The notes beneath the pieces were generated by a model. The model had not been told where the DNA came from, searched no databases, and saw nothing but the letters and a program-made list of their open reading frames with translations. A stretch of 37,527 nucleotides of DNA, taken from contig JAULBX010027396.1 of NCBI GenBank assembly GCA_032358255.1, positions 1 through 37,527 of the forward strand. The letters are read 5' to 3'. A program made the position numbers and the translations under genes. The stretch is from Heterotrichella gracilis. Its lineage: Eukaryota; Sar; Xanthophyceae; Tribonematales; Xanthonemataceae. How positions within the stretch are numbered: the first letter of the stretch is position 1; every line of letters starts with the position of its first letter. Of the stretch, positions 11,603 through 36,558 are shown one piece after another.

Positions 11603-13282
11603 GGTTACTAGGGTTCAGGTGCACAGCAGGGGGCGCATGGGGGCGGGTGCAGAGGGGCGCAAAGGGGCGCAGAGGGGAACGAGACAGGGCATACGACCTG
11701 CTGCTGCTATTCGGCTGCTGTCTCGGATGTAGGGCCAGTGGGCAAGGGGGGCGCACGCAACCCAGGTGCAACATCTGCCCGGGCCTCCTTGGACCAGTGG
11801 GCAGGGGGGCGCAGGCAGGGCCAGAGTATGTTGGGGCGCACAGGGGGTGAATGGGTGCGGATGGGGGGGAGACTTGCATGTGACCTACTACTCCCATAGG
11901 AGAAGGTTTGTGGTGTCAGGGGTACAGTAGTATACCAACAGTTAGTATCTTAGTATACTTTTGGTGGAACTGGGCTTCCATTCCGTGTGCACATCGCGTT
12001 TTATTGAGCTGTTGCATCGTTTGGGAGAGGCTGCTGCTATAGTTCCAGCCATTGGGGCAGAGCATGTGCAGTTTGGCCATTGCCATGGCCGCACCCACAT
12101 TGGAAAATACGGTGCACTTTACTCTTTGACAGGAAATTCCAACCCTGCAATGCAGTTTTGTTGCAGAGCACCCATTCGTGGATGGGCCTGTACCCCACTA
12201 GTGGGGCGTGTTTGCGCATTCTTGGTTTTCCGAATGGGTGTCACTTAGCCACGCCAATCAGTAGTTGCCAATGAATGATTTTGACATCTCAGGATGTTTT
12301 GTTGTGGACTCTGTTCCGTGATTCACATTAGAGTACAGACTTCATCATTGCAGTAGCTGACAAATGCCTATGGACAACTGATAAACATGTGCTGTGCTAG
12401 CAGCTGCACAGGCGTACATCCAGCTGCACATGCGTGCATCTTTGCGTGACGCATTGCCAGGGACCCTGTGATGTATGTACGCATAATCAGTATGATCACA
12501 TTGATTGCCAGCAGTGACCGACGCAGAGTTATTTTCATGCGCAATATAATATACATGCATGCTGCAGCTGCTGCTGCAATGTCGTACAGCGTCCGCTAGT
12601 GATGCAGATAATTGCGGTAACTCAATTGTGACACGCAATATTGCAGCTAGCTTGAAGCAAAGTTTGGTGCGTGACTCTCTTAGTCTGCACAGTGACTATA
12701 TATTGTACCATGGTGACCTGGTCCACCCGGCAATGCCAATGGGTGCTTATTTGAATGAGTCAGAAAAAGAAGACAGCTGAAAATATTACTGGTTTTATTT
12801 GCCAGTAGTATGATCCGCAACCAATTATCAACGTATGTTGGAAAGTTGTAAAGATTTATCACAATTGTGAATGAGTTTGACCGTCGTGAGCAGAGTTGGA
12901 TCCAAAGAAAGATTTCTTTCAAGAAACAGCTGAACGCCCCGACACTGAGTTCCACATGCATGCATGTGAGCGTCAAGCATGATAGCAACAGTCTTGAAGT
13001 GATCTCAAAATTTTGCATGTCAGATTATGGGAGCTAGCCTGCCTGCATGGTCCAATGGGTGGCATTGCAACGCTTTATGGGCGCCCTTACTTTATGTGTG
13101 ACATCGGCTCATATATTACCAGTAATTACTTATTGTGCTGCCAAGCCTGTCATGATGTTATATCCTTGGCAAAGCAACAACGCAGTAGCAACGCCCAACA
13201 TCCAACTTAAGTATCACTAAGCAACGTTGGCCGGCGACTACCGTATGGTCATCGATGAGATATGTATATTCCATATATTTCT
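11603..13282. other. Non-coding interval between ERMP1-like gene and paralogue A
   Basis: The first 300 bases are G-rich and probably belong to the ERMP1 3' untranslated region. From about 11900 the composition becomes AT-richer with many CATGCATG motifs. No open frame has recognisable features. The last 90 bases (13190-13282) resemble the sequence beyond the stop of the second paralogue (18340-18395) and are likely 3' untranslated sequence on the minus strand. Confidence 0.5.
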
Positions 13283-16200
13283 TCAGCGCGCAATATAGAA
13301 TGCATACCACCCCTTGCGCGGCGCAGCGCCTTGGTATGCCCCGCCAGCCCTTAGCCCCCCTGCAGCTGTCTTAATGTACCCCTGGGCCTGGTCGTAGTCG
13401 TAGCTGAAGCTGAGGCAGCGGCCATCTGCACCACACGCACGCGCAACATCCTCCACTGTCCCTCGCACCTGAAGAAGAACAAGAAGATAAAGAACAAAGG
13501 AAGGAGACCAACACAGGTGGCAGCCAGGCACGATATCATAGTACACACACAGGGCGTGTTCCACCCTCGCCAACCACCTAAAAAGCATGATTTACAAGGC
13601 ATAGCCTAAAGCATGGCCTTGATAGGCACACCTACCTGGCAGTATGTCTGCCCACCGCAGGGGATGTCGTACCCCTGGATGTCTGTGTCTGCCCAGGGGG
13701 TGAAGCACAGGGAGAGGCCAGCAGGGCAGTACTGGGAAGGGGGGGCGGGACCTGCGCCTGGTGCGAGGGGGTGTGCATTACGCATGCTACTTCATTCCAT
13801 GACGGAACAGATCTATTGGAGGTGTGCCAGTGCGAAGTAACAAGTCAACCTCATGTCATGCATTCTCACTTCATTGAATGCTTTTCTGCGCATATATATC
13901 TGCTCAAGCGCCATTGCGCTCCGCCAGGCATGAGCGCCACACCACCCATCCATTAGTGGGGCACCAACACATGCATGCCACCGCACAAGTGGCACATTAG
14001 CGCTAGTCACTCCCATTTTGTTGTATCAGTCAGCAGGTGTAGTCGGCTGGTGTGACCACTGGGCCTCAAGTGTGCACGCCATATGTGCCCTGATAGGGCG
14101 CCACCTGGCAGCTGGGGAAAGGCGTTGCTCAGAGCTTGTTCCATATGACCAGGCACTGCCAAAAAGAGTGGTACAGCACCTGTACTCCTATGCATCCAAC
14201 ATACCCAGCAGGAGCGGCGTGCTTATAGACAAGCTCGCGGCACAGTGACGCCTGCCCCTCACCGCAGCGTGGTCTGCGCCACAGAGCCGCCAGGTTGTTT
14301 ATTAGCACGCCACTCCTGCTCGGTACGTTGAATCATTTATGGCATGGGGGCACAGATGCTGTACCAATCTGTTTAGCAGTGTCTGGCGAGATGGATCAAG
14401 GCCAACAGCCACTTGGCGCCCTGTCTGGGCACAGCAATGGCCCCATAGCCAGCATGGAGACCCTACTTGGGGTCAACCATGGGCCAATGGCCGAACATTC
14501 GACCTCGCCAGCAACCCCTGCTATGGCACAGCATGCATTGAAACACACAGTGGCTGTGCAATCCGATGCAGTGTACCTGCTTGGGCGCCCGCAGCTGCGC
14601 CAGCTGTTGCGCTTGCATTCCATCCCCCCCCCCGGGACCACGGGTGCTGGGGATCCAGGGGCAGGGGAGGGGGCTGACACGGTGGGGGAGGGTGAAGGAA
14701 GAGGTGAAGCTGGGGAGGGGACCGGCACAGGTGGGGGAGATGAGGGTACCACCGGCGCAGGGGAGGGAACCGGCACAGGGGGAAGCGGAGATGCCACCAC
14801 AGGTGCTGCACCAGCAGGCTGAGGGGATGAGGTTGCATTGAGTGGCGCTGCCCCCCCTGTGCGCGAGGTCTTGCAGATTGCCAGCGCCTGTGCCAGGCCT
14901 GCCGCCACTGCTGGCTGTATGTCTGTGGCGATGGAGGTGGCGGTGCTGTTCACTGCACCTGGGCCAGTGGCGTTGCCTGATGCCTGCAGGAAGCACATAT
15001 GTGCATGCTTGCATAACAGTGCAGCATGGAATTGCCAGGCACCCAGGTATACCATGAAAATAGAGCCCCTTCTGTGCTGCAGTGCATGACTATGGCTAGC
15101 TGCATGGCGTGCATTGCATTTTGGCTGGTGTGCACCTTTCCACTCCCTTGTGCGCGCGCTTCTACCAACACAAGACTATCTTGCTGTAGAGCTTAGTTTC
15201 CATGTGCGCAGCCAGCGCACTCCCCATCTCCCAGCCCCCCACCTGCGCAGTGGCGGCAGCCTGCGCAAACGCCTGCTGCACTGACTGAGCCGCGCTCTGT
15301 GCCGCGGTGCTTCCGTTGCAGGCATTGCCGGTAGCGCTGGCAAACGCTGATGCAAGTGCCGAGGCTGTGGCTTTTGCGCTGGCAGAGGCGCTGCCTGACA
15401 CCTGGCATCCAGCTGCATGTACAACGCAAAGGATTGACAGTGTACACATGTGCCATGGCAATATAAAGCATTGGTTGCCACCTGGTGCGAGCCAGTGACC
15501 CCTCAACTTTGCCTTGTTGATTTACACACGTGACTCACAGTAGTACTACTCAGTTGCCAAGGAGGCATGCACTTTCAATTCATGACCACTGCATGAACAT
15601 TCATTATGTTGAGTACACAGTGTAATCGCCCAAAATAACGATCATAAATATACTTCAATATAAATAAACTTACACCTTAAGTATATTTTTAGATATATAT
15701 ATTGATACAAATAGGTAGGGCATAAATTTCAATTAGCTAGATAGTCACTAGATGTCTATGCAGTGGCACCATTGCAGCCCCGCAGTTGCAAAGGTGCAAG
15801 GGGGGCATGGCATTGTTGTCATCAAACATGGAAGACCCAAAGGATGGGGGCCAGATCCATGGCATGTGCTCGTTCTGCTCAACTGCATTGCATGCAAGGG
15901 TCATGCAGAGGGTTTTCTGGCCCCACCTTGGCTCTGAAGGTTGACTGAGGCTTGTGCGATGGCGGTGGCCACTGCAGTTGCAATTGCCTGCAAGGGGGAG
16001 CAACACAATCAACACCAGGCAGTGCAGGTGATTGCTAGGCGTGCCACTGTATGGCATCCCGATGCTAGGACGCTCATGTAAATGCATTGCACACACATGT
16101 TTAAGCCAGTCTTGCCACTTCCTTCAAACAGGCCATGCAGCGCCCACATGTTGGATACATGTGAAGGAGCGCCCACATGTTCATTTCACACAAACCAACA

Positions 16201-16558
16201 TCCCCACCTTGGCTTGCGCATCCGCCACCGCAGTGCAGGGGATGGCCTGGCAGTCTGCAAACGCGTTGTCAGTGGCTGAAGCAACCGCATCTTGCGCAGA
16301 TGATTGCAACCCGGCAACATATGATGCCACACATTGCGTCAACCGCATGTTGGCCTGCTGGCCCACCACATGGGGACCAGATCCACCCCCTGCCTCCATC
16401 ACACTGTCTGCCAATGGTATGCTGTGGCCAGCCACATGGTGGTGGGGGTGTGCAGGTATAGGTGACATGTACCGAGTGGCGCTAGCTCGTGATGCGCTGC
16501 ATGCATGCCACGTGGCACCGGCACAGAGGGTCAGCAGCAGCAGGGAGGGGAGGCGCAT
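13283..16558 (-). CDS. Secreted Ala-rich protein with Pro-rich linker and PAN/Apple-like C-terminus (paralogue A, frame break in exon 4)
   Basis: No named family was recognised. Minus-strand exons: 16558-16208, 15987-15927, 15412-15243, 14983-14577, 13757-13636, 13468-13283. The start opens a clear signal peptide (MRLPSLLLLTLCAGATWHAC). Ala/Ser/Gln-rich helical repeats with spaced Cys follow across exons 1-4. Exon 4 then carries a PVPSPAP-type proline-rich stretch, probably hydroxylated and glycosylated. The C-terminal part (from YCPAG) has paired Cys, CLSFSYDYDQAQGYIKTA and RKGWYAFY, suggesting a PAN/Apple-like fold. Exon 4 is 407 nt, but phase requires 406: a run of ten C at 14624-14633 is one base too long, and the other frame restores AGAAAGAQAG, matching paralogue B. 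Corrected length would be about 431 aa. An in-frame upstream ATG (16612) exists, but the chosen start fits the signal peptide. Probably a wall or matrix protein. Confidence 0.68.
13469..13635 (-). other. Intron present in paralogue A, absent in paralogue B
   Basis: A 167-base GT-AG intron (GTAGGT donor, TTCTTCAG acceptor) interrupts the codons for C-Q and V in paralogue A. In paralogue B the same codons are contiguous inside exon 5. The first 11 intron bases (GTAGGTGTGCC) are the exact reverse complement of B's exon sequence GGCACACCTAC just upstream of the same junction. Confidence 0.75.
14624..14633 (-). other. Homopolymer frame break in paralogue A
   Basis: Ten consecutive C on the plus strand (ten G in the coding sense). 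A run of nine would keep the proline-rich frame continuous with the C-terminal exon and make the exon phase match. Confidence 0.7.
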
Positions 16559-18395
16559 GGTGGTGGGGATGCGGGTGCCTGGGGATGCTGAGGGCGTGGG
16601 GGTCGGATCCACTTTCCTTCAAGGCTCTGGCTTCAGTTTAGCACCGTCCTTCGAATCAACTTGCTGGGCTCAACCAGCACTAGTGAGCTTCCCTTGTCAG
16701 GGCAACTCTGGGATGGATCCCTGGCTCGTGGCCCGCTCTGTTGTGTTGACAAGTCACCGCCCAGCCCGTTGGCGGCCCAGCTGCAGCTGCCTGTGTGGAT
16801 GTTGCACACTGTGTGAGTTGAAGTTGAAGCTTCCAGAGCCTTCAGTAATGTGGGCTGGTCGGGCCAAGTTAATACTCGGTTCCAAGTGACGGTTGGCAGC
16901 TTGCAATTGTTAGGAGAACAACTTTTCACTGATCAACGAAGTCACAAGGCTTGCCAAACAGGGCTTTACAGGCTTCGTCGATATATGGCAACATTCAACT
17001 ACTTGGAGTTGCCTGGTCCAGACACAGCGCTCTTACTTAAGTCTCCTTGCAAATGCCGAGTTCTTCTGGACTACCGAGTGGCTTCCGACACTCAGAAATT
17101 GCGAGAGTGTACCTGTTTCGCACTGTAGTGGTGGTCACAAACTGACCAATGCTGACTACCAGCCTGTGCTCGCCGTGAAGGCTTTGCAGCAGCACCGCCA
17201 AGCACCTGCCACTTTAGAGAATGGAAGCAAGTTGTGCAGGAGTATGAACCTCAAGTCTCGAATGTCCAGAAATCATTATCATTTACAAAATTGAACAAAT
17301 ATCTATACATATCAATTGATAATTTATAATCAATCACACATGTCAGAATGTCACAGTGATTTATTTTCATCCCATTGGGCCAGGCCAGTCCAAACCACAA
17401 TCTTAAAGAACTCGAGTATACCACTACATTGGCTCTTGCGCTGGCAGTCGCAACGTGCGGCGGCAATGCCATGCAGTGAAGCATACTGTGACAGTGCATT
17501 TAATGTAATTTACATGCCCACTGATTAAGTGGCTACCGGCATACAGCCTGGCAGATTTATCCACAGCTATGCAGTGTGTCTTAGGGCCTACACTTTACAG
17601 GAAGGAAATAATCCGTGAATGGGCAAAGTGATTGCTGCCCTTGGAGGGAACCATGGCTGCCAGCGCCGATCCAGCGGAGCACTGCTTGGATCAGGGGCGT
17701 AGCACACTAGGCTTCCAGCGCATGATTTAGAGTGTGACGGGGCCTGGGCCCCGTCATCATGGTGGTCACTAGTTCCCATGCCAATTTTAATTCATTGGCA
17801 ATTGGTGTAGAGGCTGTTTAGTTTGCATGCATGCAGTTTCATGTGATGCAGTATAGCTGTCAGTAGTACTCTGTCAGTGACTGAGTGATGCGTGTAATAC
17901 TGTTGTGGTTTGCAGCTGTTGCATTGAGCTAGCGCTGGAATGTATTATAACATTTGGTGCTGTTTTTAACTTACTATAATATTTAGACAGCTGAAATTCG
18001 GTTTTACACATGGTGTACAATATTTGAACCTGCAGGTCTGGTCACCAGCTTTGCGCATTTGACGGTTTTACAACAATCTATTTGCAATGCAAAACCTTTC
18101 TACCCAATCGAAAACATATAAATAAATAAATAAATGATGTATGCAAAATAATCATCAATGATCATGATTGGGAAGTTGAGACATCTCAGATAACCTCACA
18201 CCATTACACATTGTGCACAAAGCATGGTCCAACAGATGGCCTCATTGATCTCAACACTTCATGATCATTTTGAGAGTGCTATCCTGCGCCATCTCTGGTT
18301 CATAACTTAGACAAAGCGACAATTTTAAATGTAGTGGCCACGCCCAACGTCCAACTGGGTAAGCAGTAGCAAACATGGTCATTCATAAATACGCT
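16559..18395. other. Non-coding interval between paralogues A and B
   Basis: Sequence from 16559 to about 16760 resembles 21163-21400 upstream of paralogue B, so the duplicated unit included the promoter region. The rest, especially 17250-18360, is AT-rich with short AAATAAATAA tracts near 18117. No coding features were seen. A minus-strand TGTAA (18208-18204), 188 bases after the stop of paralogue B, could be its poly(A) signal, as this motif is used by chlorophycean algae. Confidence 0.5.
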
Positions 18396-21162
18396 TCAGC
18401 GCACGAGGTAGAATGCATTCCATCCCTTGCGCGGCGCAGCACCTTGGTTTGCCCCTCCAGACATCATCTCCCCTGCTGCTGTTTTTATGTACCCATGGGA
18501 CTGGTTGTAGTCATAGCTGAAGCTGATGCAGCGGATATCTTCAGCACACCTGCGCGCAACATCCTCCACCGCCCCTTGCACTTGGCAGTAGGTGTGCCCC
18601 CTGCAGGGTATGTCATATCCCTGGATCTCTGTGTCTGCCAGGGGGGTGAAGCACAAGAAGAGGCCGGCGGGGCAGTACTGCGTAGGGGGGACGGGACCTG
18701 CGCCTGGTCGGAGGAGGGTGTGTGCATCACACATGCCAGTCAGTTGCTTGCCGTAACAGGTCAATGTATGGAATGCATTTATACAGTTGGTGAACGGCAT
18801 TGCGCAGGCATGAGCTGCAGTACACCACACATTCAATCAATAAAGCACAAACCCATGCATCAAACATGCCCGATATGCACATGCACGCTAGTCACTCCTA
18901 CATTGAATGCCTCTTGAGTCACAAGTGGTAGGACCTGGTGGGGAAGGCAACAGTGACCACTGTGTGTCAACTGCAGCAAACAACTACTTGTGAAATGGCA
19001 TGCCGCGCAGTGCAACACACGGTGACAATCCGGTGCAATGTACCTGCTTCGGGGCCAACAGCCGCGCCTGCCGCTGGGGCCGTTGCCTCCGCAGGCGCTG
19101 CAGCAGCAGGTGGGGCGGTAGTAGTTTGAGGAGGGGAGCGCAAAATGAGGGTTACATTGAGTGGCACAGGCCCCTTGATGCGCGAGGGCTTACATATCCC
19201 CAGCGCCTGCGCCAGCGCAGCTGCCACTGCAGGCTGTATGTCTGTGGCAATGAAGGTGGCGGAGCTGTTGACTGCACCTGGGCCGGTGGCGCTGCCTGAA
19301 GCCTGCAGGAAGCACCATGTGTGCAACCTTACGGACTCGAGCAGAATTGAATGACAGTGTAGTTGGTGCAACGTGTCGTTGCTATGCTACGAGGACGTCC
19401 CCACAGGAGTTGCACTACTTTTTTATTTTTGGTTTGAGCTGGTCAGTGCATCAAGAATACATGAGTCGCGCAAAAGTACATGTACAGTGCAGGAGGGATG
19501 ACCTGGAATATGTGCCGATTAATTATTGGCATACTGAATGCCCATGTATACTTAGGCCAAAGCATCTGCATTGGGTACGCAGGAAATCTTGACATATTAT
19601 CTGAATCCTGCACTCTACATGGCATTAAATCCCGGCGCATACACTTGAGTCAGGTGCATTGCGCCCCATCTGCGCCGCGGTACCGTGCATGGCCAAAGCT
19701 AGCTGCATCACCGCTGGTGTCACCGTTGTACTCCCCAAGTCTACATCTCCGTGATTTCTGTCGCTTGTATCTGACATGACGCAAAGCTAACTTGCTGTGT
19801 AGCTTAGATTCCAGCCTCTGCTATTCCCATCTCACGTGAGGTTTGCACAGCTCCCCACCTGCGCAGTGGAGGACGCCTGCGCAAATGCCTCCTGCACTGA
19901 TTGAGCTATGCTCTGTGCTGCGGTGCTTCCATAGCAGGCATTGCCGGTGGCGTTGGCAAACGTTGATGCAAGTGCCAAGGCTGTGGCGTTGGCTCTGGCT
20001 GAGGCGCTGCCTGACACCTGGCACCCAGCTGCATGTGGTTATGGGACTGTCAGTGTGTATGGCAGCTCAAATCAGTGTCTGCCACTTGTGCTGTATGCGT
20101 GCCATGGTGGAACATGTTGAATTCTGTATGTGTGTGTCCGTTCTATACTTGTGACAATGCTTTAGTGTCTCAGCGGAGTCAGCCTCTTTCTAGCATGCAC
20201 TTTTCAATCGATGACCACAGCTATTTTGTTACTTCAAAATAGGCTTAATTTTTATGTATGCCAAGAGTTGTTTAGGATGCTTACATCGCGGTGTAATCAC
20301 CCCAGACATTCATCAAAAATATTATGATAATCTTGAAATGGGCATCAATTTCAATTGGCCATATATATAGAACATTCACCATTCTTGCTCCTTTAAGGTG
20401 GCAAACCCTCTGTTCATAAAAACATGGAAATACCCAAGGGCCAAATGCATCGCAGTGTGCAGTGATCAGCAGGGGCAGCTTCATCGCAAGGATTATGCAG
20501 AGGGTTTCCTAGCCGCACCCTGGCTCTGCAGATTAACGGGGGCTTGTGCAATGGCGGTGGCCACTGCAGTTGCAATTGCCTGCAAAGGGAGAGCAAATAC
20601 ACTCACACCAAGCTGTGCCAATTGAGTGCTAGGAAGAGCGTATAAATACATTGTTCACACACATGGTTTGCCACTGCTTTCAATCAGACCATGCAGCGCC
20701 CCCAACCGCACATGCTTAAAGGGGATACCTGTGAGTGAGCGCACACATGTTCACTTGGCCAGCAGGGTACATGTTTTGGGCAGGGTAGCCCCCTTCCTCA
20801 CCTTGGCTTGAGAATCCACCACTGGTGCGCAGGGATTTTTCCTGGCAGTCTGCAAACGCGGTGTCAGTGGCTGAAGCAACTGCATCCTGCGCAGATGACT
20901 GTGATTCGGCAACCGATGACGCCACGCATTGCGTCAACCTGCGCCGCATGTGGCCCTGCTGACCACCCACACGGGGACCATCTCCGCCCCATGCCTCCAT
21001 ATCACTGCCTGTCAATGGCATATTGTAGCCAGGCACATGATGGTGTGGGTGTGCAGGTAGGTCTGACAGGTGCCATGTGGCGCTAGCGCGTGATGCGCTG
21101 CATGCATGCCACGTGGCAGCCGCACAGAGGGCCAGCAGCAGCAGGCGGGAGCGGAGCCACAT
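18396..21162 (-). CDS. Secreted Ala-rich protein with PAN/Apple-like C-terminus (paralogue B, frame break in exon 1)
   Basis: Tandem paralogue of the gene at 13283-16558, same strand, repeat period about 4.6-5.1 kb. Minus-strand exons: 21162-20802, 20579-20519, 20028-19859, 19302-19044, 18703-18396. Exons 2 and 3 have exactly the same lengths (61 and 170 nt) as in A. Signal peptide MWLRSRLLLLALCAAATWHAC, Ala/Ser-rich Cys-containing repeats, then a short Pro/Ala linker (PPQTTTAPPAAAAPAE) much shorter than in A. The C-terminal domain has YCPAG, RCISFSYDYNQSHGYIKTA and RKGWNAFY. The last exon fuses the two last exons of A. Exon 1 (361 nt) is one base out of phase with exon 2. Relative to A the extra base falls around the T5 run at 20836-20840, after FADCQ. 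So it is either a pseudogene, an assembly indel, or uses a donor I could not identify. Corrected length about 385 aa. Confidence 0.62.
20836..20840 (-). other. Probable frame break in paralogue B exon 1
   Basis: Between GACTGCCAG and the conserved donor GCCAAG/GT, B has 40 bases where A has 39. The five-T run is the simplest place for the extra base. With it, exon 1 no longer joins exon 2 in frame. Confidence 0.55.
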
Positions 21163-22902
21163 GGTGGTGGAATTGTGGGTGCCTGGGGATGCTGAGGGCG
21201 TGGGGACCAGATCCAATGTTCTTCCACGCTCCAAGTCAGTGGCTACCGCTCAGCCGCTGGCACCCCTGGGTCTTGGTGTCACTGCGTTGCGCCGTCAAGG
21301 CAAGCTTGCTTAGCTTGCTGGCCTAGCTGGGCTTGCTTCCTGTCAGGGCAACTCAGAGCCTGGGTTTGACCCCTGCCAGTGGGTCTGTTGTGTTGATAGA
21401 TTCAACTGTCAGTGACAATGTGTGCTGGACTGCCGCAGGACAACCTGCTGTGGCAGGTTGCATGAACTGGCATGCCATTGAAGCACATGGGGATGGGATG
21501 GGAATCATTCCCAACGGTAGAAGCTTCACTGACCAAGCAGGCCAGGCTCTGGATCAAGGTTTCTTAGTAATATCCCGGATAGGGTGAGCATTGGTGCAAG
21601 TGATGGTTGCCAACAAACAAACAACAACTTATACAGCTGTCACGAAGTTCAAACTGCCAAGCTGGCTGCAGGCAAATTTTGAAGTGAGGCAGTACGTACT
21701 TTGCAAAGAGCTCAGCATGGGTCCCAAGCCCCGAGCGGCTCCGCTCAGCTCACTTTGCAAGCTTCCCTTTTCGGAAAGGGAACCGTTACATTAACGGTGC
21801 GGCACAAATTTGAAGGCGGAGTCTAACTTAGGGGCCACTGGCTTGCAACAGGAGACCATGCAAAACGCAGTTCGATTTGTATCATAATGATTGCAGACAC
21901 GGATGCTGAGCGCATGTGAGGTGCAAACCATTCTATGGAAGTTGGAAGTTCCAAGAGCGGCCTGTGAGGTGCAAGTTATTCCAAGAGTTTGCCAGTAAAG
22001 AAAATTGGAGTTCAATTTGAAAAGTAAACACAAATGATTTTAGGGTACTATTTGTGTCGACATACTATATATTTCCCATTTTGGCAGGCAAAGCCCAGTT
22101 CCCTGGGCTGCAGCGCATGATTCATGGCATCGGAAGCAACGTGCCCCAATACTCCATGCCATGGTGGGCGGGGCCCGGGAGCGCTGCATGGCCACTCAGC
22201 CTGAGAGTGTTACTACCACTAACAGATGGGGAGTGGCATGGCCATTGCCAGCATGATCGGGCAAGGTTGGGCACAACGGGTGTGGCTGCTGCATCGTTTT
22301 TGCCAGGAGCCTGGCAGTGTCTCAGAGGCAGGCACTCTAGCTGGCGCAGTTGCTAGCCAAGACAAAAGCCATTGTGCTGCTTTTACATGGACCGGGTCTA
22401 CAAATCCGATGCGGGATGCCACTGGCATGCATGCCGGTGCACTGCAACTGCCCATTGCATTCAGGAGTCAACATAATTGGCAGCCGAGTACAATGCAATG
22501 CACTGCTTCGTTGCATGGACCCCTGTCACCGTTTTGTGCGCTGCCAATTCCATGCCAGATTAAAATGCAATATATGCTCCACTCATTGGCTCAATGCATG
22601 ATGCAGCAGTCCGCTGCCACACACATACCATCGACCCTCGTCGGCATGTTGCACCATTTGAACCGCAAACGGGAGCCAGATATGTGCATGCTCTGCTCTG
22701 TGTCTCTGCTATGCTGCATGGCTGCTTGACATTTGCAAAACAGGCCAATGCCTGAATATGTTATCCTCTAGTGTTTGCCCTCAAAATCCTGCAATGGTTG
22801 CGCACCCATGGCGAGCACAGACCCCGCTGTCCCCGTGCCACAGCCGCGCCCACCTTACTTCCAGCCTAACGCTCGGCTGGAAGCCAACTCCCCCCCCCAG
22901 CT
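21163..22902. other. Non-coding interval
   Basis: The part next to 21163 is the presumed promoter of paralogue B and resembles the region upstream of A. The remainder holds only short unsupported open frames on both strands. The end near 22902 is the 3' flank of the small membrane-protein gene. Confidence 0.5.
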
Positions 22903-26875: not shown

Positions 26876-29800
26876 ATGGCACGCCGCCTTGCGCTGCCGC
26901 TGCTGGCCGTTGTGCTTGCCGCTATTTTGCCAGGCAGCCGGGCAGGTGGGTGGCGCCTATGATAAAATCCGGGCCGGGTATTTGCATGCGTCTGCAACGC
27001 ACCGCATGGACTAGCGCCCTCCTTTGGCACTTGACTTCGAGCTTTGCGTTACTTAGACCTGCCACCTAAGGCTTCGCTGCAACCCCTATCAGCGCGGCAA
27101 CGCTGTATTTCCATCCCGCCTCACAAGTGGTGCACCACCCCTGCAAGCGCATGCATGCTAACGTGCACATGGACCCTCTTACCCCTGCTCCACAGGCCAG
27201 TGCGACTTCACAGCAGCATGGCACTGCAGCGCCGTGGACAACTCAAAAGGCACCCTGGCATTCGCTTGGGACGGGAACTCCACCACCGTGTATAAGACTG
27301 CCAACTACCAGGACTGCTGCAACCTGTGCCTGGCGACAACAGAGTGCCGCTTCTGGAACTACCTCGAGTCGGCGGGGAAGGGCGACGCCAACGACGGCAC
27401 ACAAAATGAAAAGGTGTGCAGGCAAGCAGGTGGTGGGCTGGGGTAGTTTGTTGCTGCCTAGGGATGAGAGAGCCTAGGTGCCTAAACTGTGGGTCCCTAG
27501 GGCAGGAGTGTGCACAGGGCATTGTCCTTGGAGGGGGGCTGCCCACAAGCACAAGGTGTGCTTGTGCATATCATGTCCTGTGGCAGCACACAGTGCACCA
27601 GCTGGAGGGAGAGTGTATATGTCCCGCCGCAAATGCCATGTCACTGTAGCCAGCTTGGACTTCAACCTTCGGTCAGCTCACCACCTGGAAACCCGCATTG
27701 CGACAGTTCAGCGCCCCACCTGGCCCCGTGCCACACTGCATCAAGACCTGGGCAAGCCAGAGCGTAGCCAAACCAGGGTCAAGACACATGGCCATGCCCA
27801 GCACCCCCCCTCCCCCCACCTCCCCCACCCACCCACTGCAACCCCTCCCTGCGCAGGAGTGCTGGTTGTACACCTCAGCAGCGCGCCCTGTGCCGCCACA
27901 GCCCATCAACAACGCCACCCACCCCTTCCCGCCCAACACCACAGACCCAGGCTATTCTGCACCCAACTGGAAGTGCGGCGTGCTAGGTAGGACCTCCCAC
28001 TGCGGCTGAGATTTGGGCCCCAGCATTGTGGCATCGCCCCATGGTAGCTGGGCTTGTGGCATATGTGTGGTCCTGAGCATCTCATGCCCATGATCACATA
28101 CAGGGTACCTGCCATACACGTATCATGCCTCATCACAGCAGCCTTCTGTGGCGTGTTGGTTGCCACCTAACAGCATGTGGTAGTCCATTGTGCCGCTCCC
28201 ATGCCGCATGGATTCCAGGGCCGTGGCTCACGTATGATCCAGCAGCTGGTTCCACCTGTCTGCCCCCTATGGAGGGGCATGCATGCATACACAGTTGGTC
28301 TGACAGCGCCTAGTATTTGCATGGTGCAGATCCAGCGTCGGTCCTGCATGCCCCTCCGCCCAGGCCACCGCCACCAAAACCACCCTCTCCGCCACCCAAG
28401 CCACCCTCTCCACCGCCACCAAAGCCACCCTCTCCACCACCACCAAAGCCACCATCGTCCCCGTCAACAAGCACAGGTATGCGTGCATGCAAGTCTGTCA
28501 CCGACTTAATGTCCTCTTGATGCCCAAACGCCACCCACGTCACGTTGTTTCCGACTTCCTTTGTGTTGCTTTCGCAGGAAAGTGTGATTTCACTGCTGCA
28601 TGGCATTGCAGCGTTGAGGACAACTCAAACGGCACCCTGGCATGGGCATGGAATGGGCAATCCAGCAGCGTGTACAAGGGCGCAAATTGGCAGCAGTGCT
28701 GCGACACCTGCACTGCTAAGGGCTGCTCATTCTGGAACTACCTGGAGGCAGCCGGTAACGGAAACTCCAACGATGGCACGCAGAATGAGAAGGAGTGCTG
28801 GATTTACTTTGTGGATGCGCGCCCCGTGCCCTCCCCTCCACGCAACCGCTATGACTTCCCCCCTGGCCCCAAGGACCCTGGCTACCAGGCACCAAACTGG
28901 AAATGTGGGGCGCCAGCAGGTGAGGACACATAGGCTGCCACATTTGCCATCGCATGGCACCACCACTTGGCTGTGGTGTTGCCACATGCAGCACCGCATG
29001 GCACCACTGCGTGTGTGTCATCACATGCTCGTGAGCGCGCCTATGTTGCATGGTGCAGCATGACGCGCATGATGCGGCACGGCACATTGGCCAATGTTAG
29101 CGGGATTGTGGGTCTCTGCTCGGTGCGTGACATACAAATTGCGCATTGCACAACTTGGGGTGCATGGACTTTTCTTTGCAGTGAGGTTATACAGTTATAT
29201 GGCTGACGTGCCCTGGTGAGGGCCAGCGGCCCTTTAAATCTGCGTATGTGCGTTCCCTTCCTTTCTTTCCTCTGATTGCCCCCTTGCGTCCCAGGATCCC
29301 CATCTCCGCCACCATCCCCTCCGCCATGCCCGCCAACCACAGGTACTACGTTGACATGCACCACACCATGCAGTTGGTTGTACGCACACCACCCTGCACA
29401 TGTCTACAAACCTCCTGCATCTAGGTGCAGGCAGGGCTCATGTACTGGGAAGAGGGGGTGAACTGGATGGCACATCAGCATGGCTCATGTTCCCTGCCAA
29501 CCCCCTTTGGCACAGACTCCACTTCCCATGACCCCGCACCTTGCCCACCAGACATGTGCTCTACTCTGCCTGCTCCCTTGCACCTCACTCTACCACATAA
29601 TCCAAACTCGTATGCATGCGTCTGATGCCAACCTTGTTGTACCTGCAGGAAAGTGCGACTTCACCGCTGCATGGTATTGCAGCGCCGACGACAACTCCAA
29701 CGGCACCCTGGCATGGGCATGGAATGGACACACCAGTGGCGGGCACAAGGCGGCCAATTGGCAGGACTGCTGCGACACCTGCAATGCCAAGGGCTGCTCA

Positions 29801-32800
29801 TTCTGGAACTACCTGGAGGCAGCCGGTAACGGAAACTCCAATGATGGCACGCAGAATGAGAAGGAGTGCTGGATCTACTCTGTGGATGCGCGCCCCGTGC
29901 CCTCCCCTCCGCGCAACCGCTACGACTTCCCCCCTGGCCCCACAGACCCTGGCTACCAGGCACCAAACTGGAAATGCGGGGCGGGAGCAGGTGAGGCCAC
30001 ATGTCGCCACCACATGCCCTGTCACGTGACCCCCTGCATGGCACCACTGCGTTGTGTACAGCACAGGACATGCACACGTGGGTGGCATCACTGATGACAT
30101 GTTCACGTGCTGTAACCTTGCCCTACCTGCCATGCAGTCTGCGGAGTGATCCTCCCCTAACCCCTAAACCCTATACCCTAAACCCTAGAGCGCGGGGTGG
30201 TGCATGATTCCAGGGACTGTGCATCTGCCCGTCGCACTGAAATACTGTTTGCCCCTTGCATGCACATGTGGCACGGTACTTCATCATCCATTGTTGATGT
30301 ACAGTGATTGTATGACAGATGACATTGCCGATACTGAGATTGACCCCCTACATACCAGGTTCAGGGTGTTCAGGAGGTCCCACATCCTCGTCACCGTCTC
30401 CATCATCCCCGTCACCGTCTCCATCATCCCCGTCACCATCCCCAGCGTCACGCCCGCCTATCCAGAGGCCCTCTACATCACCATCACCAGGGCCTAGCCC
30501 TAAGCCCTCTCCATCACCATCACCAGAGCCATCCCCGGAGCCTTCTCCGGAGCCTTCCCCTGTGCCATCCCCAGAGCCATCCCCGGAGTCATCCCCAGAG
30601 CCATCCCCAGAGCCATCCCCAGAGCCATCCCCGGAGCCATCCCCGGAGCCCTCTCCATCACCATCCCCGGAGCCATCCCCGGAGCCATGCCCGCCAACCA
30701 CAGGTACTACGTTGACATGCACCACACCATGCAGTTGGTTGTACGCACACCACCCTGCACATGTCTACAAACCTCCTGCATCTAGGTGCAGGCAGGGCTC
30801 ATGTACTGGGAAGAGGGGGTGAACTGGATGGCACATCAGCATGGCTCATGTTCCCTGCCAACCCCCTTTGGCACAGACTCCACTTCCCATGACCCCGCAC
30901 CTTGCCCACCAGACATGTGCTCTACTCTGCCTGCTCCCTTGCACCTCACTCTACCACATAATCCAAACTCGTATGCATGCGTCTGATGCCAACCTTGTTG
31001 TACCTGCAGGAAAGTGCGACTTCACCGCTGCATGGTATTGCAGCGCCGACGACAACTCCAACGGCACCCTGGCATGGGCATGGAATGGACACACCAGTGG
31101 CGGGCACAAGGCGGCCAATTGGCAGGACTGCTGCGACACCTGCAATGCCAAGGGCTGCTCATTCTGGAACTACCTGGAGGCAGCCGGTAACGGAAACTCC
31201 AATGATGGCACGCAGAATGAGAAGGAGTGCTGGATCTACTCTGTGGATGCGCGCCCCGTGCCCTCCCCTCCGCGCAACCGCTACGACTTCCCCCCTGGCC
31301 CCACAGACCCTGGCTACCAGGCACCAAACTGGAAATGCGGGGCGGGAGCAGGTGAGGCCACATGTCGCCACCACATGCCCTGTCACGTGACCCCCTGCAT
31401 GGCACCACTGCGTTGTGTACAGCACAGGACATGCACACGTGGGTGGCATCACTGATGACATGTTCACGTGCTGTAACCTTGCCCTACCTGCCATGCAGTC
31501 TGCGGAGTGATCCTCCCCTAACCCCTAAACCCTATACCCTAAACCCTAGAGCGCGGGGTGGTGCATGATTCCAGGGACTGTGCATCTGCCCGTCGCACTG
31601 AAATACTGTTTGCCCCTTGCATGCACATGTGGCACGGTACTTCATCATCCATTGTTGATGTACAGTGATTGTATGACAGATGACATTGCCGATACTGAGA
31701 TTGACCCCCTACATACCAGGTTCAGGGTGTTCAGGAGGTCCCACATCCTCGTCACCGTCTCCATCATCCCCGTCACCGTCTCCATCATCCCCGTCACCAT
31801 CCCCAGCGTCACGCCCGCCTATCCAGAGGCCCTCTACATCACCATCACCAGGGCCTAGCCCTAAGCCCTCTCCATCACCATCACCAGAGCCATCCCCGGA
31901 GCCTTCTCCGGAGCCTTCCCCTGTGCCATCCCCAGAGCCATCCCCGGAGTCATCCCCAGAGCCATCCCCAGAGCCATCCCCAGAGCCATCCCCGGAGCCA
32001 TCCCCGGAGCCCTCTCCATCACCATCCCCGGAGCCATCCCCGGAGCCATCCCCAGAGCCGTCACCAGTCCCGGAATCGCCCTCCCCTCCACCCCCTGAGG
32101 CGCCACCCACCGGTGGGGAGTTAGAAGGCTCCCCCCCTGAGCCAATCCCCTCCCCTCCTGAGGACTCATCCCCCCCCCCCCCTGAAGCCTCCCCCATACC
32201 CACCCTGCCGGCCCCTGCACCTGACAGTGGCGCCACCACCATCCCCGTACCCGCACCAGATGTGCCCAGCGGCGGCGGCTTGGGCGAGGTGCCCTCCCCT
32301 TCCAGTGAAATCCCCGGAGAACCATCCTCGCCTCCTGAGAGCCCTGCGCCTGCCCCCAGCGACATTGTTGGGCCACAAACTGACGGGGCTGAATCCCCAG
32401 CAGAAGCCCCACTTGCACCAGTCCCTGCCGCAGGACCTGACACCGGTAGCGGGGGGGTGATCACACTGCCAGGAAGGTTCCCCCACAGGAGTCCCAAGCC
32501 CAAGCCCAGCCCAAGCCCTGCGGTTCCATCCCCTTTGCCATCTCCTTCCCCCACCCCCTTGCCCCCGCTGCCAGCCTCCCCCTCCCCGTCACCCACCCCG
32601 TCGCCGTCCCAGCCAACCTCCCCATCCCCCTCGCTACCAGCTTCTCCCTCCCCCGCTCTTCCTGCGTCCCCAGCCCCCTCGCCCTCTCTACCTGCCTTCC
32701 CTTCTCCGTCGCTGCCAGCCTCTCCCTCTCCCTCTCCCTCTCCCTCGCCGTCCCCCTCGCCCTTCCCATCCCCCTCCCCCTCGCCCTCCACACCGTCCCC

Positions 32801-35800
32801 CACCCCCCCAAGCCCTGGTCCAGGTGCGGTGCTGCGCTAAACCCTAAAACCCCATACCCTAGACGGGGAACAGCCTAAGCAGGGTCCATCCACGCTGCTG
32901 AGGATGCTCTTGCACTTGACTACTGTCATTTTAAGCATTGCGGTACTTCACAACTTGCACATGTATGGAATCCATGCAGTTGTCCTGCGCAGGCAACGTT
33001 GGTGCAGATGTAATAGGTGACCCGCGCGAGGCAGGGAAAATGATTACATGACTTTGCAAATGTGTATGAATATTGGCAATGGCATTCTAGCAGAACATGC
33101 CTTTCACACAACTTAAGACAATAGGCCAACTCGAACAATGTACACACCGGTATTCAACATGCAACTTCATACCCCATCCTGATGACGGCTCCGTACCATT
33201 TCCTTGCCTGTGCCGCAACAACGCCTCCCCCTTGGCTTGTCCCCAGACAACCCAGTGGAGCTGATCACGCCAGAGACACCCACCACCGGCAGCAGCTGGG
33301 TGCCCGGCCACCTTCCCTCGGCTGTGGTCGATGGCAACAACTCCACATACACGGAGACCCAGCCAGGTGACCCGCTGCCATGGGTGGGGGTGGAGGTGGC
33401 ACCGCCAGGGGAGAGTGCTACAATCACGGAGGTCACGGTGATGCCAGGTAGGGGGGGGGGATCCGGGAAGTAGGAGTGGCGGAAGAATGCGTGTTGAATT
33501 TATAGGTTATTATATGAACAAGCCCTGGGCTGTAGCTACATGCACATGCATAAAGGGGTGCAACATGGGTTGAGCAGTGGGAATTGGGGTTCAGGCACTT
33601 GGTGTAGGGTTTACATGCAAATGCATAAAGGGGTGCAACATGGGTTGAGCAGTGGGGAATTGGGGTTCAGGCACTTGGTGTAGGGTTGCATGTGGTGCAA
33701 CGCTGGTTGACCATGGTGCGCATCTGTCATTTGACCCTGGTTCTGCCTACCTCCCGCCTGTATCACATTATCTGCAGCCCCTGGTCTGCGGGGCGTGTCT
33801 CGCAAGCATCATCACATGGGACCTTGCTCCGCATGTAATGATATGGTAGATTGCGACCAGCATGCAATGCAGGCAGACCAGCATGCTGATGCGGCACACC
33901 CACTCCTCCCCCCTGCAGGCCCATCAGACCTCGGCGAATTGGTGATCATGGTGGGTACCAAACCGCCCACCACCGAGAACATCGGCACAGATTTCACCCC
34001 TGTGTATGTGGAGCAAGGGGGGAGCACAGCAGCAGGGGGTGGGCCGGTGACCATAACACTTCCCCCCCCAACTGCGGGGGGTGGCGGCGCCCCCCCTGCC
34101 AACTGGGTGGTCATAGTCAGACCCAGCGGGGGACCTTCGCCCACCCCACCTGGATCTCCTCCAGTGCCTGGCACACCAGCCATCCCTGAAACCCCAGCCA
34201 TCCCCGGCACTCCGGCCATCCCCGAAATTCCAGCCATCCCCGGCACTCCAGCTGTCCCTGGGACTCCAGCCACTCCTGAGACTCCTGCCATCCCTGGAAC
34301 TCCAGCCATCCCCGGAACTCCAGCCACCCCCGGGACCCCTGCTATTCCCGGAACTCCAGCCATTCCTGGAACTCCAGCTATTCCTGGGATTCCAACCATC
34401 CCAGGGACGCCTGCAGTGCCCAGTCCTGGTCCCGGGGTTGCACCGCCCCCACTGGTGATTGGAGGGCTCAGCGTTGTGGGCATCATCACTCCTGGTGCGG
34501 CTCACCCTGCAGGGTTTTTTGTAGTGCATGGAAATGTGTCTTGCGGTGGCACATCCCGTGTCATCCTATTTTACAAGGTGATAAAAGGATCCTTTAATCC
34601 GCATAGGCACCTGGATCGTGCACACCATCCACCACACATGGTCAACTGACCCCCTCCTTGTGCCCTCCCCATGCAGACCTGCCACCTCCCTCCCCGATGC
34701 CTCCTCTTTTCGCCCCGCCTCCTTTCCCATATGGACCCTACGGCCCATTATCCCCAGCGCCCTACGGTCCATCCCCAACGCCCTACGGCCCATCCCCATC
34801 GCCCTATGGCCCAATCCCCATGCCATCTCCAGCCCCCGCTCCCTACGGCCCCAACCCCACCCCATTCCCCCCATATGGCCCCTCGCCCTCCCCTTACAAC
34901 CCATATGGACCCTCGCCCTATGGGGCTCAAGCACGCATGCTGTTTGGGGTTAATGGCCTGCCGATGGAATTCATGGTGGCTGCCACCGAGGCATCTGAAT
35001 CCCCAGAAGACGATGTGGGGTCCCCAGAGCAGCCGCTGTGCGTTTCTGAAAACGAGGCTGCCGAGCCCTACTGCCTGGCGGAGGGGGTGTGCAGCACGCA
35101 CTTCAACCAGGAGGTAAGGGGTGGCTGCAGGTGGACAGGGAAACCCTAGCCCAGGGTTTTGCTGAAGGCGGTTTGGTGAACCTTAGCTGGCGTTTGCGGA
35201 CATTTGCAGTGCCGTTCATGCACTCAATCTGCCAATGCTATGCCATTGCCAACATAATCGAGCTTGTGATGATCATCTGGGTGGCCTTCACAGGAGCATG
35301 CGTGCCCAGGATGGGATGCATGCACCAGACATGACCACAGCTATCAACTCCTGTTGTTTGCACGCACATCCCAATGCCAGCGTGCGCACCATTTCCCCAT
35401 GACAAAATAAAGAATAATTTTGAAAAGCCCGCTGCACCCTGTAGGCCCCATGTGTGCCACTACCAGCTCTCTGCCATGCTCCCTCCCCTGTGCCCTGACC
35501 CCATGTTGCTCCCCTTGCAGTCCCCCCTGTCCGTTGTGTACACCGCCTTCAAGTCCATCGACTCCCCCTCCTACTACTACATTATCAAGGCCTACACTAA
35601 CAACACGCATGTGGAGCAGCTGACGTTCAAGTGAGTGGGCAAAGGGGATTGGGGGTATTTCAACAGTGCGAGTTGCCGCGCTGCATGGTTTTTAACCCTG
35701 TACATGTGAGGCATGGAGGCCTTGGTTTTGCCAATGCAGGCGCAGGGTTGTACTGGCAATGTGAGAGGCGTGTTTACAATTTATCACAGATGGTTACCTG

Positions 35801-36558
35801 TGATCTCAATAGCGTAACTGAATGGTTGCAACGGGCAAATGGCTGTGTACGAAATGGATCATTCAAAGCTGCCGCCCAACTCCTAAATCCTAATACCCTA
35901 GTACACACCCTCCACCCCTTGCCCCTTGCCTGCAGGGTGTCCGACGCCATGGTGCGCAGCCAGACCCTCCCCGTGCAGTCCTCCCCCGAGCTGCTGCGCG
36001 ACGAGCTGGCGCTGCCTGTGTTCACGGGCTGCTCTGCTGGCATGGAGAACACGCTGACATGGACAGCCATGCCTGAGCCGCTGCCCAGCGATGGGGAGGT
36101 TGCTGGGTACAAGTTCTACTTCAAGTTTGAGGTGGGTGGCAGCGGGTGGTTAGTTGAGTACTTTGCATGCGGAGTTTCACCAAGGTGGCTTGCCTGTAAT
36201 CTGTACTCACCAAATTGTCTGCTATTGATTCCCAATCCCTTGAGGGCCATTTAGGAAGTCCATTACTGACCCTGTAGTGCCATTTACATCCCCTGACCTT
36301 TGCCCCATGCACCTCCCTGTTGAGTTTGAAGGGATAGCGCACAACCCCTCATGAACCCATCAACCCCACTCCTGCCCGCACCCCCTCCTCCTGCTGCAGC
36401 TTGAGTTTGACGAGGCTGTGTCCAACCTGTTTGCGCGCGGCGTGTACATCGTGAGCGCAGCCAGCGGCAACCCCATCCTGGTCACCCAACCAGGGGAGGC
36501 GCTGTATGTGGCCAAGGTGGGCGGGGTGGTGGGCTATGGCATGGCCACCTACCTGTAG
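26876..36558 (+). CDS. Secreted modular proline-rich protein with four PAN/Apple-like modules (1588 aa)
   Basis: Sixteen phase-consistent exons: 26876-26945, 27196-27413, 27857-27986, 28330-28476, 28578-28919, 29295-29342, 29649-29990, 30359-30703, 31010-31351, 31720-32823, 33247-33447, 33919-34494, 34677-35113, 35521-35630, 35936-36131, 36400-36558. Exon 1 is a signal peptide ([23 protein letters not shown]). Four modules at about 24-139, 189-303, 319-433 and 548-662 share CDFTAAW, CC-x2-C, FWNYLE, ECW and PNWKCG, a PAN/Apple-like Cys pattern. Linkers are [14 protein letters not shown] and, in exon 10 (663-1029), a long Pro/Ser region. Exon 11 (1031-1096) resembles a galactose-binding F5/8C-type fold ([13 protein letters not shown]). 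Exon 12 holds PAIPGT repeats, exon 13 YGPSP repeats. Exons 14-16 form an unrecognised region ([11 protein letters not shown]). Likely an extracellular-matrix or surface adhesion protein. The exon 12 donor is the least certain border. If intron 10 is retained, the protein ends at TAA 32838-32840. Confidence 0.72.
27196..27986 (+). other. PAN-like module 1, split by an intron
   Basis: Module 1 is encoded by two exons (27196-27413 and 27857-27986) separated by an intron between NEK and ECW. Modules 2-4 encode the same junction without an intron. It is also the most diverged module and carries NNATHPF and NTTDPG, two possible N-glycosylation sites. Confidence 0.75.
28355..28476 (+). repeat. PPPPKPPSP linker repeat
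   Basis: Three to four tandem copies of a CCACCCTCTCCACCGCCACCAAAG-type unit encode a PPSPPPPK linker between modules 1 and 2. It is typical of extensin-like wall proteins. Confidence 0.8.
29323..30683 (+). repeat. 1361-bp tandem duplication, unit 1
   Basis: It spans the end of exon 6, intron 6, the module 3 exon (29649-29990), intron 7 and most of the linker exon 8. The following unit appears identical, in introns as well as exons. Exonic content is a multiple of three, so the reading frame is kept. The edges share GCCAT microhomology. Confidence 0.9.
30155..30190 (+). repeat. Interstitial telomere-like tract in intron 7
   Basis: CCCCTAAACCCTATACCCTAAACCCTAG in the intron between module 3 and its linker; it recurs at 31516-31551 in the second duplication unit. 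It matches plant-type CCCTAAA telomere repeats with interruptions. Confidence 0.65.
30480..30690 (+). repeat. SPEPSPEP linker repeat (exon 8)
   Basis: Tandem CCATCCCCGGAGC / CCATCCCCAGAGC hexacodon-like units encode [12 protein letters not shown] with a few SPSP, PVPSP and ESSP variants. The same array is found at 31841-32060 in exon 10. Confidence 0.85.
30684..32044 (+). repeat. 1361-bp tandem duplication, unit 2
   Basis: Copy of 29323-30683 at a constant offset of 1361, carrying the module 4 exon (31010-31351) and the first part of exon 10. All corresponding open frames translate identically in both units. Past 32049 the sequences differ. Confidence 0.9.
32500..32823 (+). repeat. Pro/Ser-rich tail of exon 10
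   Basis: CCC-TCC-rich degenerate repeats encode [18 protein letters not shown] and [16 protein letters not shown]. This is a probable arabinogalactan or extensin-type glycosylated rod immediately before the 32824 donor. Confidence 0.8.
32838..32866 (+). repeat. Telomere-like tract at start of intron 10
   Basis: TAAACCCTAAAACCCCATACCCTAGA directly after the in-frame TAA that would end the protein if intron 10 were retained. It resembles the tract in intron 7 and those in the ERMP1 intron. Confidence 0.55.
33539..33692 (+). repeat. 75-bp direct repeat in intron 11
   Basis: Two nearly identical copies of a unit running from CATGCATAAAGGGGTGCAAC through GAGCAGTGG and AATTGGGGTTCAGGC to GTGTAGGGTT, offset by 75 bases. 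They differ by a base or two. Confidence 0.85.
34160..34425 (+). repeat. [12 protein letters not shown] repeat (exon 12)
   Basis: About fifteen degenerate 15-18-base units encode PAIPGT / PAIPET / PATPGT / PAVPGT. Third positions vary, so the array is older than the SPEP arrays. It forms an extended, collagen-like or elastic proline-rich rod. Confidence 0.85.
34720..34925 (+). repeat. YGPSP repeat (exon 13)
   Basis: Repeats of CCCTACGGCCCATCCCCA-type units encode [18 protein letters not shown]. The Tyr-containing proline-rich repeat could allow tyrosine cross-linking, as in extensins. Confidence 0.8.

Follow-up and report, generated by a model that had tools for sequence, protein, structure and literature searches.

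The hydroxyproline-rich glycoproteins (HRGPs) of chlorophyte algae (GP1, VSP and the pherophorins) are rich in SP and carry PPSP-type repeats beside globular domains. A predicted secreted protein with an apple domain is on record from a green-algal wall: PMC11839794, which lists 12 likely wall proteins, places the hypothetical protein KAF6251784.1 of Scenedesmus sp. NREL 46B-D3 (1433 residues, signal peptide plus apple domain) in the maternal-wall list of Scenedesmus obliquus, based on one peptide and 0.7% coverage in S. obliquus 633. A PAN/APPLE-like protein was found in the medium of Chlamydomonas after salt stress, according to a review citing Khona 2016 (PMC6952985), and the oomycete wall protein CBEL binds glycoproteins via galactose (Gal) or N-acetylgalactosamine (GalNAc) (PMC3532174). 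The passages available from a review of the green-algal matrix contain no word beginning with "apple" (PMC10762512). Here we analyze contig JAULBX010027396.1 (C489) of assembly GCA_032358255.1, filed under Heterotrichella gracilis; the window is this whole contig of 37,527 nucleotides, and genome searches covered 68.5 Mb in 903 contigs. A predicted gene at 26876-36558 on its plus strand, which we take to be a nuclear gene of a green alga, encodes what we consider, with moderate confidence and from sequence comparisons, to be a secreted, modular and probably hydroxyproline-rich glycoprotein of the wall or matrix, in which PAN modules on stalks would bridge several partners.

In comparison to the chlorophyte HRGPs, the C489 protein shares the SP-rich and PPSP repeats and adds PAN modules and a domain resembling F5/8C. 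By published description, it can be likened to KAF6251784.1, which in Table 3 of PMC11839794 is predicted to be secreted, has an apple domain (PROSITE PS00495) and a similar length, and is given without a predicted transmembrane helix. CBEL, with two CBM1-PAN/Apple units, likewise contains repeated PAN/Apple domains in a wall protein, its halves being linked by a Pro/Thr-rich hinge; it differs in its length (266 residues), its CBM1 domains, the lack of long stalks and of an F5/8C domain, and its unrelated lineage (PMC3532174). A reading of this DNA made from the letters alone (the sequence-only reading) had been aware of no algal matrix protein on record that shows this domain order, and none was found in the open-licence literature searched. 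The kind of protein is nevertheless not new, because secreted apple-domain proteins of green algae are already in print (PMC11839794 and PMC6952985).

Structure of the predicted gene

The gene model contains 16 exons, every border being GT-AG, and a single frame runs from the ATG at 26876 to the TAG at 36558. This open frame of 4767 bases (1588 residues plus stop) bears out the large modular gene proposed by the sequence-only reading and has the length given there. Its parts, all on the plus strand, are as follows.

26876-26945, plus strand: exon 1, ATG and signal-peptide-like N-terminus, residues 1-23 (model, hydropathy)
27196-27986, plus strand: exons 2 (27196-27413) and 3 (27857-27986), PAN module 1 (Pfam, over cut-off)
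28330-28476, plus strand: exon 4, PPSP/PPPPK proline-rich linker, from residue 140 (model, repeats)
28578-28919, plus strand: exon 5, PAN module 2, without internal intron (88% amino acid identity to module 3)
29295-29342, plus strand: exon 6, short linker (model)
29649-29990, plus strand: exon 7, PAN module 3, without internal intron (model, genome match)
30359-30703, plus strand: exon 8, SPSP/EPSP linker, apparent fusion exon at a duplication junction (repeat comparison)
31010-31351, plus strand: exon 9, PAN module 4, DNA equal to exon 7 (repeat comparison)
31720-32823, plus strand: exon 10, long SP/EPSP stalk ending near residue 1030 (model)
32824-33246, plus strand: intron 10, containing an in-frame TAA (32838-32840) and a TGTAA (33009) (model)
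33247-34127, plus strand: exon 11 (33247-33447) and start of exon 12 (from 33919), F5/8C-like domain (hidden Markov model [HMM] match; end at 34127 set by eye)
34128-34494, plus strand: remainder of exon 12, TPAIPG-type repeats and hydrophobic stretch at residues 1268-1288 (repeats, hydropathy)
34677-35113, plus strand: exon 13, YGPSP repeats, then the beginning of the C-terminal domain (model)
35521-36558, plus strand: exons 14 (35521-35630), 15 (35936-36131) and 16 (36400-36558), orphan C-terminal domain to the TAG (G+C content at third codon positions [GC3])

The entry phases of exons 2 to 16 are 1, 0, 1, 1, 1, 1, 1, 1, 1, 1, 1, 1, 0, 2 and 0. Thus, 11 of the 15 introns are in phase 1, including all that separate modules and the one that interrupts the F5/8C-like domain. 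The sequence-only reading had noticed neither these phases nor the exact repeat and the paralogs described below. Phase-1 introns between modules are the pattern expected of exon shuffling. GC3 favors the coding frame in exons 14 to 16 (0.83 to 0.89 versus 0.33 to 0.65 in the other frames), in exon 11 (0.76 versus 0.65 and 0.57) and in the PAN exons 2, 3, 5, 7 and 9. It does not favor that frame in exons 1, 4, 6, 8, 10, 12 and 13, which we attribute to the composition of the signal peptide and the repeats.

The predicted protein contains 24% Pro, 13% Ser and 40 Cys residues. A Kyte-Doolittle scan located a hydrophobic N-terminus (residues 1-23) where the sequence-only reading had placed a signal peptide; the C-terminus lacks a hydrophobic segment. 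Repeat counts recovered the four proline-rich repeat types claimed earlier, including an (I/V/T)P(G/E)-ending type present 11 times and YGPSP (8 occurrences of YGP). A secretory-type N-terminus is therefore combined with SP/PPSP-type repeats, as in HRGPs, by hydropathy and repeat counts. Short degenerate CCCTAAA telomere-like runs also occur in the introns of the gene, at 30155-30187 and 31516-31548 and, by eye, near 32840 and 35890.

PAN modules and their paralogs

The four modules (residues 24-139, 188-302, 318-431 and 547-660) contain 8 Cys each. Module 1 is interrupted by a phase-0 intron that falls between NEK and EC, whereas modules 2 to 4 lack an internal intron. In Pfam, module 1 exceeded the cut-offs for both PAN_4 (PF14295; 28.9 bits, cut-off 27) and PAN_1 (PF00024; 24.7 bits, cut-off 21.4), and over 71 residues it shares 69% identity with module 2 and 66% with module 3, with a ratio of nonsynonymous to synonymous substitution rates (dN/dS) of 0.17. 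Between modules 2 and 3, identity reaches 88% at the protein level and 91% at the DNA level (dN/dS, 0.23). The Pfam scan of module 3 also stands for module 4, which is identical to it. Across the family alignment, the motifs CCxxC, CxF(W/F)NY and ECW(I/L)Y are kept in each row that covers them, and C41, C45 and C50 are invariant in the 15-row module alignment, in keeping with the PAN cysteine pattern. When the family alignment was compared by hhalign with five further PAN exons from the genome, the probability was 63% (E = 7e-5). The assignment of module 1 to PAN/Apple is supported by Pfam and that of the other modules by their homology to module 1. By the NG86 method, dN/dS was 0.14 to 0.46 in the 43 of 45 module pairs that were computable, several of them with dS above 1 and with module 4 repeating module 3. 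The sequences of modules 2 and 3 (and hence 4) look conserved by selection.

A genome search with module 3 matched 19 places, comprising 5 on C489 (the five PAN exons) and 14 on contigs C556, C212, C131 and C26. The latter correspond to eight further module copies, of which five are on C26 and one each on C131, C212 and C556; their identity to module 3 is 45 to 61% for the first-exon pieces and 54 to 77% for the second-exon pieces. Scanned alone against Pfam, five first-exon pieces all matched PAN_4 (E = 3e-5 to 0.004), none of them over the PAN_4 cut-off, and one passed that of PAN_1 (24.0 versus 21.4). In all eight copies, as in module 1, the NEK part is followed downstream by a separate stretch with the ECWIY part. 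The split is thus probably the ancestral state, from which modules 2 to 4 have departed.

A proline-rich stalk and a GDPHxxGFDG (GDPH) domain follow the PAN module in seven of the eight copies; for the eighth (C556), the contig ends inside the stalk. In the five C26 copies, which lie within about 48 kb on both strands (C26:2799-50541; L038-L042), one open frame covers the last part of the second PAN exon, a 24- to 169-residue stalk (26 to 35% Pro) and the GDPH domain; at C26:32053, the start of the second exon is in another frame. On C131 and C212, a single frame located downstream of the PAN exons contains both the stalk and the GDPH domain. An in-frame stop interrupts the first PAN exon on C212 and at C26:49510 (at a conserved Trp in the latter), and these two copies may be pseudogenes. 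The GDPH domain, which we take to resemble plant root-cap proteins, gave weak VWD matches for two of the three pieces scanned (E = 0.012 and 0.031, both under the cut-off) and none for the third. It has 62 exon matches in the genome, none of them on C489. Several GDPH exons follow PPSP-type stalks at places where the stretches examined contain no PAN motif (L057, L058, L060 and L061).

These genes thus resemble the C489 gene in having a homologous PAN module followed by a proline-rich stalk. They differ in that one PAN module was found in each, split at NEK/ECW as in module 1 and unlike modules 2 to 4, and in that they carry the GDPH domain where the C489 gene has the F5/8C-like and orphan domains. 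On this comparison, the C489 gene looks like an enlarged, re-tailed member of a PAN-on-stalk family.

Domains downstream of the stalk

Residues 1044-1149 matched F5_F8_type_C (PF00754; 20.3 bits, cut-off 28.2, E = 6.3e-4) and F5_F8_type_C_2 (PF22633; 15.2 bits, cut-off 27.8, E = 0.033), and none of nine shuffled versions matched any family. According to this HMM match, the domain spans exons 11 and 12 and extends beyond the residues 1031-1096 proposed initially. An F5/8C assignment is plausible, and we call the domain galactose-binding-like only, because the PF00754 score is under the curated cut-off. When the genome was searched with the protein sequence of the domain, only its own two exons were returned. 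Searching the genome with the F5/8C family returned nothing; this does not show absence, since the gene's own split domain was missed too.

The C-terminal 217 residues match only their own four exons in the genome and no family over the Pfam cut-off (YmgD, E = 0.033; glutaredoxin 2, E = 0.18, far below), as anticipated by the sequence-only reading. A second hydrophobic stretch at residues 1268-1288 (Kyte-Doolittle, 1.67), which that reading had not noticed, could be a membrane segment; given its short core, we would not take it for a membrane helix.

Exact duplication of modules 3 and 4

The sequences at 29323-30688 and 30684-32049 are 100% identical over 1366 bases, introns included (span 29323-32049, plus strand). 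The duplicated unit of 1361 bases contains PAN module 3, two introns and an EPSP linker, and the copies overlap by 5 bases. Exon 8, at the junction, opens with sequence of the exon-10 type and closes with that of the exon-6 type, and the reading frame is kept. No third full copy of the unit was found in the genome. Thus, the four modules claimed from the letters are present in the contig, but modules 3 and 4 are one exactly duplicated unit.

The exact repeat would reflect either a very recent duplication from three to four PAN modules or a duplication introduced by assembly. An assembly artefact, leaving a true gene with three PAN modules and otherwise compatible with the proposed glycoprotein, is a possibility that we take seriously without favoring it. 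It would account for perfect identity through the introns, in contrast to modules 2 and 3, which are 9% apart in exon DNA and belong to an older pair whose introns have diverged (one 31-base match in the five introns compared). The junction, however, keeps the frame between coding sequence of the exon-6 and exon-8 types at the 5-base overlap, for which the chance is one in three, and changes in repeat number are common in such modules.

Possible binding or structural role

Secretion, stalks and PAN modules together suggest an extracellular binding protein. In the proposed mechanism, the stalks would be hydroxylated and glycosylated to form stiff rods in the wall or matrix, and the PAN modules and the F5/8C-like head would bind glycans or glycoproteins. 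One molecule would thereby bridge several partners as a multivalent cross-linker or adhesin. The gene may have originated from an ancestor with one PAN module and a stalk, followed by phase-1 exon shuffling, loss of the internal intron of the module and duplication of modules in two rounds, of which the second was very recent. The surface or matrix adhesion role suggested by the sequence-only reading is consistent with the paralogs, with the stalks and with wall proteomics in print, and we infer it on that basis.

Several results weigh against the glycoprotein with PAN modules. Module 2 alone had no Pfam match, and module 3 alone reached 11.5 bits for PAN_4 (E = 0.32), under the cut-off, so that the PAN modules announced earlier stand by module 1 and by identity to it. 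The hhalign comparison of modules 2 and 3 alone with the five other PAN exons was weaker (probability, 25.5%; E = 7.5e-4). Structure prediction, proposed earlier as a check, gave AlphaFold models with a mean predicted local distance difference test (pLDDT) score of 38 and 53, which were unusable (helix 38-48, then strands), and the fold search with these poor-confidence models returned no match. PAN identity rests on sequence and not on fold, because the models were poor and the fold search was empty. The same side of the balance holds the sub-threshold score of the galactose-binding-like domain, the second hydrophobic stretch, the perfect identity of modules 3 and 4 and the absence of homologs at E ≤ 0.01 in the protein databases searched, which leaves conservation of the domain order across species unsupported.

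A purely structural wall protein, with hydroxyproline-rich rods and Cys-rich modules that provide disulfide or protein contacts without glycan recognition, appears somewhat unlikely. About 760 of the 1588 residues are linkers, stalks and repeats, and Cys residues occur in the linkers too (residues 314, 436, 543 and 665), which speaks for such a protein. Against it stand the apparent selective conservation of the module sequences and the binding of carbohydrates or proteins by PAN/Apple domains elsewhere (PMC3532174), although both are compatible with contacts to proteins only. The protein might also be a multivalent adhesin of a fast-evolving family, whose PAN lectin heads bind arabinose/galactose glycans of neighboring hydroxyproline-rich proteins and whose valency was tuned by the recent duplication from three to four modules, perhaps in cell-cell recognition or sporangium-wall assembly; this is a speculative extension to which we give very little weight.

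One gene or two at intron 10

The sequence-only reading had singled out the TAA at 32838-32840 as the point at which one gene and two could be told apart. TGTAA is the usual green-algal polyadenylation signal. A PAN-HRGP gene could end at the TAA, only 14 intron bases beyond the exon 10 donor, and be followed by a separate gene for the F5/8C-like domain, the TPAIPG and YGPSP repeats and the C-terminal domain, or polyadenylation could occur inside intron 10, which has a TGTAA at 33009 (one of 24 on the plus strand of the window). The downstream gene could start at the ATG at 32904, which opens 38 residues with a hydrophobic start and GT sites in phase 1 (32998 and 33010). We nonetheless regard these arrangements as improbable: the new ATG would be just 63 bases from the stop, the frame of exon 11 has no ATG from its upstream stop (33183) until 33441, intron 10 is in phase 1 with GT-AG borders like the other introns between modules, and in seven of the eight paralogs the stalk is followed by another domain. 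We therefore retain a single gene for the modular glycoprotein.

Chance open frames were rejected because the paralogs, GC3 and dN/dS argue against them, and a pherophorin was rejected because no such family was among the Pfam matches to the N-terminal, F5/8C-like and C-terminal pieces. A transposon or virus origin was rejected as well; no search was aimed at such elements, and a Pfam scan of 10 other open reading frames of the window returned one TFIIS zinc ribbon and no family for the rest.

Other features of the window and genome

The zinc ribbon is of the TFIIS type (PF01096, E = 3.5e-17) and lies at 178-669 on the minus strand. A 60-base coding-looking segment, QLGAGYWWTFRTPPVVPAS, occurs at 5275-5334 and 5475-5534, the two copies being 200 bases apart and 92% identical; by eye, we take the segment (5275-5534) to lie at the start of an M28/ERMP1-type peptidase-like gene. 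Two copies of about 3 kb at 13281-16627 and 18394-21231 are 81 to 88% alike in eight pieces, 4.3 to 5.1 kb apart, and have minus-strand frames with a hydrophobic N-terminus and a proline-rich part, perhaps representing tandem secreted-protein genes.

Elsewhere in the genome, the chlorophyll a/b-binding family has 43 exon matches. A CP26 exon scored 307 to 312 bits against its three best-matching PDB chains (7pi0, 9is4 and 6kac) and 273 to 274 bits against the two that come next (8bd3 and 9hd7). We take 7pi0 and 6kac to be from Dunaliella and Chlamydomonas, respectively, and 8bd3 from a Chlorella; given these organism names, the order of matches would point to a chlorophycean alga. psaA and psaB were not found in the assembly.

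Significance

To our knowledge, the wall-building proteins of green algae are poorly known outside the volvocine algae. A PAN-on-stalk family with exchangeable tails offers concrete candidates for proteins of wall assembly and adhesion, and the phase-1 introns between its modules in the C489 gene provide a testable case of domain shuffling in algae.

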